A stretch of 64,000 nucleotides of DNA from Massariosphaeria phaeospora (Eukaryota > Ascomycota > Dothideomycetes > Pleosporales), in NCBI GenBank assembly GCA_011032825.1, contig JAADJZ010000008.1, positions 248,001 through 312,000 of the forward strand, read 5' to 3'. This document shows, one piece after another, positions 43,583-46,177 of the stretch. Position 1 is the first letter of the stretch; every line of letters starts with the position of its first letter. A program made the position numbers and the translations under genes. The notes under the pieces are model-generated. The model was not told where the DNA came from. It searched no databases and saw only the letters and a list, made by a program, of their open reading frames with translations.

Positions 43583-44766
43583 GGTAGACTGCGTGCCGTG
43601 CGGCGCATGGGCAACCTCCACCTCGTCGGTCCTGGACTCCGCGTGGGCTGTCTGATCTGTATCGTGTACGAAGGTGCTTGAGAGTCAGTTTGTTTGGAAC
43701 TTGTATAAAGTACCTACGGCAGTCGAGCGAGCGGACGGGACATGATCCCTTTTTGGCGAACAATATAGAAGCCAGGCTGAGCTATAGAACGTGCCTTTTG
43801 AATAGACTATTCCGCATCAATATATATAGTCTCACACATTGTTATACCGTAAGACGAGCAATAGCACCCGGTAACCACTTACAGTCTACTACCGTGTTAT
43901 CTAGTCCTTGAACAGCAGCTCTCTCTAACCTGCTTGCTTGTTTGCATATTAGCCAAGACGGATTAGTCATAAGCTGGGAATGCTACTTTATCTCGTAGCT
44001 ACGTTGGCATTTATGCATGGATGCGTATAAGTTTGCTTTTATCAGCGGTTCCGATAAAGCAGAGTAAGGTTATGTACGTTGACAGTTTACATGCGTTTCT
44101 TCTTCTCTCTATTGCGTGCGATGTCAATTCATTCAAAGTGTTTGTTTAGACGACATGCATGTTTATTCAGCCTAGGTTAGTAGAAAGCTCAAGATAATTG
44201 ATGCTCGTGAAGGCGAGTGAGTTGTAAGTAAATGGAAACTCGGGAAAAAGATTGTGCGTAGGTTGTTGTCTGGGTCGAGAATCGTAGTGAGTAAATATGG
44301 TAGAGTGGATCCAGCGTGACAGTACGTAGCGAGCATGGTCAACATCGCACTCTTAAAGCCCAGTTGTATCTCGATGTGTCAGAGCTATATTACGGACCCT
44401 GTGGTGAGTATACGGTAGCCAAAAGCTGCTCTATTGCCAGAGCATCGCAGCATCAATCAGTGTCTCCTACTACTCACAGCGCTCTGCACATCCACCTCTC
44501 CAAATCACACCCCTCGTCTCTTTCCAGCAGCTCGACTCATCTAGCATGTTCCTCGCTCGCTCGCTTCCGGCTGTTCCATCCGTCCAGTAACTTCCACTGC
44601 CTGCCTATGACGTCGCCGCCCCCCGCGCCGCCGCGCCTTCCACGCGCTTCCACGCGCACCCATCGCACCTGCCTGCTGCCTGCTGCCTGCTGCCTACCGC
44701 CCCTCCCTCATGTGACGCCCTCCTAGCGCGCTGCTGACTCACTAGCGCCAGGCCGCTCCCAGCGCC
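43583..44766. other. gene-free stretch upstream of U4
   Basis: No supported gene. It contains repeat copy 3 (43953-43998). The last 150 bases are C-rich with tandem CCTGCTGCCTG units (44669-44695). Confidence 0.45.
43953..43998. repeat. degenerate repeat, copy 3 (partial)
   Basis: CCAAGACGGATTAGTCATAAG followed by TGCTACTTTATCTCGTAGC matches the centre of the repeat copies at 41.2-41.5 kb, 2.4 kb away, on the same strand. Only about 45 bp are alignable by eye. Confidence 0.6.
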
Positions 44767-44773
44767 TATATAA
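44767..44773 (+). promoter_or_regulatory. TATA box of the U4 snRNA gene
   Basis: TATATAA 42 bases upstream of the inferred U4 5' end, in a spacing suited to a Pol II snRNA or mRNA-type promoter. Inferred from position only. Confidence 0.55.
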
Positions 44774-44808
44774 GCCCATCCCCTCGCTCACCCAAACACT
44801 CTCCTCCT

Positions 44809-45012
44809 ATCCAAGTGGTAAGTTGCTCCCCCTCCCCCTACATTCTCTCTCCGAGGCCACCTCAGCCAGACACTAACTCACAGCCAATAACAGCAAGGGC
44901 TTTAAGCTTACCAGTGAAGATTCGTCTGAGGTGGCTTTTTTGCTAGTTGAAAACTACAACTTGACTGCTCCTGTTGGCCTTCGGGTCGGCAGGGAATTTT
45001 TGAAACCCTTTT
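44809..45012 (+). ncRNA. U4 spliceosomal snRNA, interrupted by an intron (44818-44893)
   Basis: Exon 1 is 44809-44817 (ATCCAAGTG), exon 2 44894 to about 45012. Joined, the 27 bases before the 5' stem-loop match the yeast U4 5' end in length and pattern (ATCC..TGCA.GGG). The 5' stem-loop CCAGTGAAGATTCGTCTGAGG (44911-44931, K-turn that binds Snu13) is almost the yeast one. Then come the U6-pairing stem I segment TTGCTAGTTGAAAACT, a perfect 10-bp hairpin with TTCG loop (44970-44993), and the Sm site AATTTTTGA (44995-45003) between GGG and CCC. The intron has GTAAGT, CACTAACTC about 17 nt before AACAG, and is 76 nt. It cuts through U4/U6 stem II, so U4 must be spliced to work. The 3' end is approximate. 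Confidence 0.9.
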
Positions 45013-46177
45013 TCGTTGAGTGTGCTGGCTTTGTGCTGGTGCCTTGAAGAAGAGTGTGGGTGTTCTTGTCGTGTCGTGGCTTGTCTTGTTTGGTGTTTGC
45101 GTAGTGAGGCTCGTGGAAGGTGGCCGGGTGAGTGAGATGGGAGAGTTTGGGGCTGCGCTCTGCAGGCTTGCTGCTGATGGTAATGTATCGCGATGGAGGT
45201 CGCTTTTTCGGGTCGCTGTCTGATGTGATGGTGTGTTGTGAGTTGAGTTTTGGCTGCGCGCGCCTGCCCGCGAGGCCTTTTGCCAGGACCTACCGCGACC
45301 GAAGTCGCATACTAGACCAGCATAGCGATCAAACTATCCGCAGCGATCAAGCCAGCGATGAGACGCCTTGCTCTAGGCACGAAATCTCCCTCCAGCAGCT
45401 TCTCTGAAGGCGAGGCAGCAGGCCAGGCGAGGCTGCCCACCAGCTCAGCTCTTCCTGTCTCATCGCGATTTGGCGTCGCCTGCCAGCACCACGAGCTCCG
45501 AATGAGCGGTATACCCGACGCCTCAAAAGTGATGACAGCTAGGTTCCGCCGAAGCGCACCCATTCCGTGCTGCTGCTGCTGTCGCGCTCGGCGATGCTAT
45601 CAGTGGCAGGCGCCTCCAGCCGACAAACCCCCGTACGAGGTGCTCCTCCCCATCTACGAATGCTTGCTTCATATCATCGCGCGCCTGGAAAAGCTGAGAG
45701 GATCGGGCGCGTGGCTCGGCGAGCGGATGGCTTATCGGCCTCTTCTTTGCTCTATATGGTACGCCCCCGACTGAGCGAGTAGATTCGCTTCGAAATTCGA
45801 AACCCCCAGGCAAAGACCTCCGAACCGATGCGCTCGTCGCAGTTTCCTCGAAGCCTGCGGACGGCACCTCTTAGACGGCCTGCGATTCTTCAAGGGCAAC
45901 GGGCGCGCGCGCCGGGAAGGTCACTTTCAGCGGCCTGGGAGCGTGGCTGGCGGCGTTTCTACACGGCCAGAGGGCCATTCGGGGAAAACAATGGATTGGA
46001 AGGTGGAGCACGTTAACGGCGTGATGCCCGCGAGTATACGCAGAGTCCAGTCATCAGAGGGGGGGCTTGGACTGGCGGTAATGGGATCTCGCGACAGGAT
46101 GGACCCAATGCCGCTGTTCGATCGAGGGGAGACCGTATACGTGGGCAGCTTAGCAACAACAGCTTGTCCTAATCGAT
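45013..46177. other. intergenic
   Basis: No supported gene. A plus frame at 45358-45774 and a minus frame at 45867-45523 overlap each other and neither has a domain, signal or splice support; I would annotate neither. Confidence 0.4.

Follow-up and report, generated by a model that had tools for sequence, protein, structure and literature searches.

A predicted spliceosomal intron inside the U4/U6 stem II strand of a U4 snRNA gene of the ascomycete Massariosphaeria phaeospora

Can the gene of a spliceosomal RNA be interrupted by a spliceosomal intron in the very strand with which that RNA pairs with its partner, and does the spliceosome then depend on itself for its own supply? This question is raised by a U4 snRNA gene in a stretch of 64,000 nucleotides of DNA, hereafter the window. 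The host was indeed an ascomycete, as originally supposed: Massariosphaeria phaeospora (Pleosporales, Dothideomycetes), one of whose proteins is 100% identical to the RPC34 protein encoded in the window. The sequence shows a promoter, a split exon 1, splice signals, an exon 2 that has the U4 fold and an Sm site, and colinearity with paralogs that lack an intron; on this evidence we consider it very probable that the locus is an intact pol II-type U4 copy whose U4/U6 stem II strand is interrupted by an ordinary U2-type spliceosomal intron.

The gene lies at positions 44809-45012 of the window, on the + strand like all of its parts given below, and was recognised by the Rfam U4 model RF00015 (match at 44889-45021, 89.3 bits, E 7.9e-20), exceeding the gathering score of 46. 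The first positions of the model fitted poorly, and the match had its start within the proposed intron, since a 76-nt insert separates the first nine U4 bases from the rest. Those bases form exon 1, ATCCAAGTG (44809-44817), which is the 5' part of the stem II strand and is colinear with the intron-free paralog L001. The mRNA-type intron GTAAGT...AACAG (44818-44893) follows, found at the same place with a 1-nt shift in the paralog L002; it contains CACTAACTC, and its predicted branch site is CTAAC (44873-44877), with the branch A at 44876, 17 nt before the intron 3' end. According to RF00015 and to folds, exon 2 (44894-45012, the latter being the approximate mature 3' end of U4) contains the remainder of stem II, the 5' stem-loop (44905-44936, from the RF00015 alignment) with a CAGTGA/CTGAGG internal loop that we take to be of the k-turn type, the stem I segment GCTAGTT (44942-44948), whose partner is GATTAGC of U6, a folded 3' hairpin of 10-11 bp capped by UUCG (44969-44994) and the Sm site AATTTTTG (44995-45002). 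Both the order of the parts from the 5' stem-loop to the Sm site and the split of the U4 5' end had been proposed in the original prediction, and the Rfam alignment, the folds and the positions found here agreed with them. Likewise, 27 nt were counted ahead of CAGTGAAG in the joined U4, as predicted, the same number as in the intron-free L001 and, according to the original prediction, in yeast U4.

The flanks of the gene were also those of an snRNA gene. The TATA box TATATAAG (44767-44774) starts 42 bp upstream of ATCC, a spacing that had been correctly anticipated. An upstream promoter element, TGCTGACTCACTAGCGCC (44732-44749), was recognised by eye among upstream sequences and was also present in L001 and, as variants, in four U2 genes, that is, in 6 of 12 U1/U2/U4 genes compared by eye. 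Downstream, the element TTGAAGAAGAG (45044-45054) may have a role in 3' processing or termination, and a GARGAAGA motif was found 3' of all 12 U1/U2/U4 genes compared. As a separate observation, the element TTGAAGAAGA or a near variant occurred 3' of U1, U2, U3 and U4 genes (at 45044-45054 in the window, for example), frequently preceded by TTTTTCATTGA and by a small hairpin, the U3 gene L047 being included by eye; this shared element is a candidate snRNA 3' processing signal. In L047 (G000 C7:673845-674062) itself, inspection by eye showed a GT...GCTAAC...CAG intron close to the 5' end, in keeping with what is known for fungal U3 snoRNA.

The donor, branch site and acceptor of the insert are together those of a U2-type intron, and by eye the RPC34 mRNA intron of the window carried the same signals. 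Among 27 GT-AG removals tested, that of 44818-44893 alone improved the alignment to the intron-free L001, raising the score from 49 to 60. When the insert was shuffled by mononucleotides, no shuffle (0 of 20,000) combined AG at one terminus with GTRNG or GTAAG at the opposite one, and YTAAC alone, 8-35 nt from the end, arose in 1,746 of 20,000. The loose signature was not rare, YTAAC and YAG being found at intron-like distances after 4 of the 25 GTAAGT on both strands of the 64-kb window, and what argues for an intron is therefore the precise junction together with the paralogs. The genome yielded no other copy of the intron sequence (its single match being the intron itself), and thus no sign of a recently multiplied intron.

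If the gene is expressed as its parts suggest, the primary transcript would start at ATCC, the spliceosome would remove 44818-44893, and the joined RNA alone would make the full stem II with U6 and enter U4/U6. A search for U6 genes, proposed along with the original prediction, revealed six loci; the partner foreseen there, GCCCUUGCACUUGGAU, was absent from them, and all six shared GCCCCUGCACUAAGGAU, which forms 15 pairs with the joined window U4. The stem II duplex reached -22.7 kcal/mol for the joined RNA, a value equalled by 0 of 2,000 shuffles, compared to -9.2 kcal/mol for the unjoined RNA, indicating that the intron does split the stem II strand, as had been claimed, and that its removal would restore stem II with the U6 of this genome. 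The intron-free paralogs L001 and L004 gave -25.3 and -28.0, respectively, and stem I of the joined RNA gave -8.4. When a nearer AG (CACAG, in the 44880-44883 region) was taken as the acceptor, stem II dropped to -13.8. In cofolds with U6, stems I and II formed for the joined RNA and for L001, and the unjoined RNA kept stem I and lacked stem II. The total cofold gain was -16.7 kcal/mol (joined), -19.9 (L001) and -12.6 (unjoined), the last arising from stem I plus non-canonical pairs.

Five U4 matches were found in the genome, four of them full-length, and the intron was present in two of these four (the window copy and L002). L001, located 41 kb away on the same contig and on the opposite strand, is intron-free, 98% identical to the joined window U4 and scored 102.6 bits against the Rfam U4 model; A5 and A12 are the joined-RNA bases specific to the window copy. 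In L002 the intron sits one base off the window position (ATTCAAGT, GTAAGT...CGCTAAC...GCAG, GCACGGGC); exon 2 is 93% identical and GT..CTAAC..AG is kept in an intron whose body has diverged. L004 is a full-length, intron-free and diverged U4 (77%), and L005 is a U4 locus without the 3' half. Judged from these sequences, intron loss in L001 would be the simplest reading, because its body is the closest to that of the window copy and yet the intron is common to the window copy and L002; gene conversion of the U4 body could mislead this reading, since the flanks of L001 and of the window copy are less alike than their bodies. Pattern scans for U4 relatives returned 1 match in viral contigs and 16 in genome contigs, none of the 17 with CAGTGA within 60 upstream bases, and they were therefore read as chance matches.

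Introns were not confined to U4. Nine of 19 full-length snRNA loci contained them, with 14 introns altogether: 2 of 4 for U1, 4 of 4 for U2, 2 of 4 for U4, 0 of 1 for U5 and 1 of 6 for U6. This count leaves out U4 L005 (no 3' half), U1 L023 (AT-rich, degraded), U2 L017 and the loci with a U2 3' half (L027, L031, L034, L035 and C26:345441). Together with two in the U2-like L034, 16 introns were listed, their ends placed by hand from exon sequences, and all were GT-AG with YTAAC 8-17 nt from the end. Among the U1 loci, L012 and L020 have introns and L021 and L022 are intron-free; L012, L021 and L022 scored 38-48 bits in Rfam, below the U1 gathering score of 69.5, and Rfam at E 0.5 returned no match for L020, nor for L042. 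In U1 the intron interrupts AUACUU|ACCUU, through which this RNA pairs with the 5' splice site (-12.0 when joined, -5.1 when unjoined). The U2 genes carry one (L013), two (L014) or three (L015 and L016) introns, the first of which, in both L015 and L016, interrupts the strand that forms U2/U6 helix II (-14.6, compared to -7.5 and -7.1), the remaining ones being placed in the stem IIa and stem IV loops. An insert retained in either of these loops might be tolerated, and the sole intron of L013 is in the stem IIa loop, so the case for self-dependence is weaker for this gene. In U6 (L011) the intron immediately precedes the strand that pairs with U2 in helix II. The U2-intron pattern had 0 matches in viral contigs.

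Several further loci resembled snRNA genes. L017, L027, L031, L034 and L035 (G000 C34, C23) combine a U2 3' half with an unrelated 5' part and look like snRNA genes, with a TATA box, an Sm-like site and a GAAGAAGA-type 3' element; C26:345441 was listed alongside them, and L034 has two introns of its own. Going by their sequences, these loci possibly represent a family of U2-derived Sm-class RNAs. About 200 bases 3' of U2 L014 and L016, pieces of the U2 3' stem-loop arranged in tandem were seen by eye, with a further GAAGAAGA element behind them. The sole U5 locus found, L018 (G000 C9:113647-113754), showed by eye a U6-like TATA region, no GAAGAAGA element and, downstream, a GGTTCGACCC similar to the box B that lies 3' of several U6 loci, and is possibly transcribed by RNA polymerase III. 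L023 (G000 C49:1343358-1343444) is a degraded, AT-rich U1 copy, 77% identical, situated in a stretch that looks like the outcome of repeat-induced point mutation.

The original prediction went beyond gene structure and held that stem II can form only after the spliceosome has spliced the U4 on which it depends itself. This was not supported: L001 and L004 are full-length, intron-free and able to form stem II, so that not every functional-looking U4 copy bears the intron, and an obligatory U4 loop was rejected. With two intron-free loci beside two intron-bearing ones, the overall U4 supply need not depend on splicing. The milder proposal, a regulatory intron by which low splicing capacity would yield less U4 from the two intron-bearing loci in a positive feedback loop, draws on the strong stem II difference between joined and unjoined RNAs and on the recurrence of introns, which are present in nine of the 19 full-length snRNA loci, all four of U2 among them. 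However, the intron-free U4 loci would buffer any such loop, and neutral gain and loss likewise predicts paralogs that differ in intron presence; we regard a regulatory role of the U4 intron as unlikely.

Any feedback on splicing capacity would be better placed on U2 than on U4, because all 4 full-length U2 loci are intron-bearing. No intron-free U2 was found in the 42-Mb, 51-contig assembly by a joined-sequence search and a branch-site pattern, an unassembled copy being possible, and for this reason self-dependence is plausible for U2 in M. phaeospora. The joined-U2 search found the 5' half in the four intron-bearing U2 genes alone; a C7 fragment of the U2 3' stem-loop was also recovered. The branch-site pattern, with up to 2 mismatches, hit the four U2 genes and one further place, C3:1183840, a fifth exact match that was discarded because inspection by eye showed no U2 context around it and Rfam returned nothing at E 0.5. 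Putting these loci together, functional U2 would be made solely by a U2-containing spliceosome and, with splits in the U1 end that pairs with the 5' splice site, in helix II (U2/U6) of two U2 genes and in U4 stem II, the RNA supply would be splicing-dependent, its introns being placed in RNA-RNA contact segments, perhaps through gain by reverse splicing; we hold this broader picture as a serious but tentative possibility and lean slightly against it.

Two other explanations of the window copy were weighed. It might be a decaying U4 pseudogene with an insertion, all U4 being supplied by L001 and perhaps L004. L001 is intact, a TATA box, an Sm site and the 3' downstream element all being present in it, and its pairing with U6 is slightly better (-25.3 versus -22.7). 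Nevertheless, exon 2 of the window copy is 98% identical to that of L001, with stems and Sm site undamaged, its promoter is 84% identical to that of L001 over 74 bp, and the splice signals are intact in it as well as in L002, diverged as the latter is. Exon 2, promoter and splice signals would hardly be expected to survive in a degraded copy, and with all these parts intact the pseudogene reading was rejected as highly improbable. Finally, a mature U4 start near 44885, inside the so-called intron, with no splicing and a shorter stem II, would fit the beginning of the Rfam alignment at 44889 and still yield -13.8 with U6 (the value for an exon-2 start), but it would leave the TATA box about 120 bp upstream, as against 37-46 bp for the TATA-like element of 12 U1/U2/U4 genes, intron-bearing or intron-free, would leave unexplained an upstream exon matching the U4 5' ends of L001 and L004, would require the identical arrangement in L002, and was rejected on the TATA spacing as barely credible. 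That 12-gene comparison took in U1, U2 and U4 genes and left out all U5 and U6 loci; TATAWW was present in 8 of the 12, and the weaker element of the other 4 was found with a looser pattern devised after inspection.

An intact U4 gene with a spliceosomal intron thus remains our preferred reading of the window locus. A spliceosome whose own RNAs need splicing is a self-dependent production loop, and M. phaeospora offers a natural test of it, with U4 and U1 copies with and without introns side by side and no intron-free U2 found. This genome bears on whether splicing capacity is fed back via snRNA supply, and on whether reverse splicing at sites of RNA-RNA contact is a route by which snRNA genes acquire introns. 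There is a caution for annotation as well: standard models misplace the 5' ends of intron-split snRNA genes, as Rfam did in beginning the window U4 within its intron.

Introns in snRNA genes are already known, and it is the U4 intron that is without precedent in the open-licence PMC literature searched, where the available portions of the papers (including PMC5832005, PMC2586383, PMC6461891, PMC10484740 and PMC2441463) yielded no report of one. In its accessible text, PMC5832005 (2017) names U3 and U6 as the sole small structured RNAs in which interruption is known to be frequent, describes GT-AG introns near the 5' end of fungal U3 snoRNA, with intron-bearing and intron-free paralogs in one genome, and reads their presence or absence as neutral gain and loss. 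The window U4 resembles fungal U3 in having a GT-AG intron near the 5' end of a small structured RNA and paralogs with and without it; U3 acts outside the spliceosome and so involves no self-dependence, unlike the snRNAs of M. phaeospora. Among basidiomycetes, introns were reportedly described in 1996 in U1 and U5 of the yeast Rhodotorula hasegawae, and we know of none in its U4. A U2 intron of the same yeast appears as a title (Takahashi 1993) cited in the available part of PMC2586383. Like R. hasegawae, M. phaeospora has several snRNAs whose conserved parts contain mRNA-type introns, but it is an ascomycete; its introns affect U1, U2, U4 and U6, and none was seen in the one U5 locus. For U6, an mRNA-type intron in fission yeast is said to have been reported by Tani and Ohshima (1989, 1991), and U6 introns in many fungi by Canzler (2016). 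Passages of PMC10484740 and PMC5832005 likewise mention U6 genes with mRNA-type introns in fission yeast and other fungi, and the former cites a proposed origin of the fission yeast intron by reverse splicing, an origin that the snRNA introns of M. phaeospora may share. As in fission yeast U6, the window locus has a spliceosomal intron in a functionally important stretch of an snRNA that acts in the spliceosome; unlike the U6 introns, it falls within the strand that U4 contributes to U4/U6 stem II, in a genome where the U6 gene L011 likewise carries an intron, beside its U2/U6 helix II segment.
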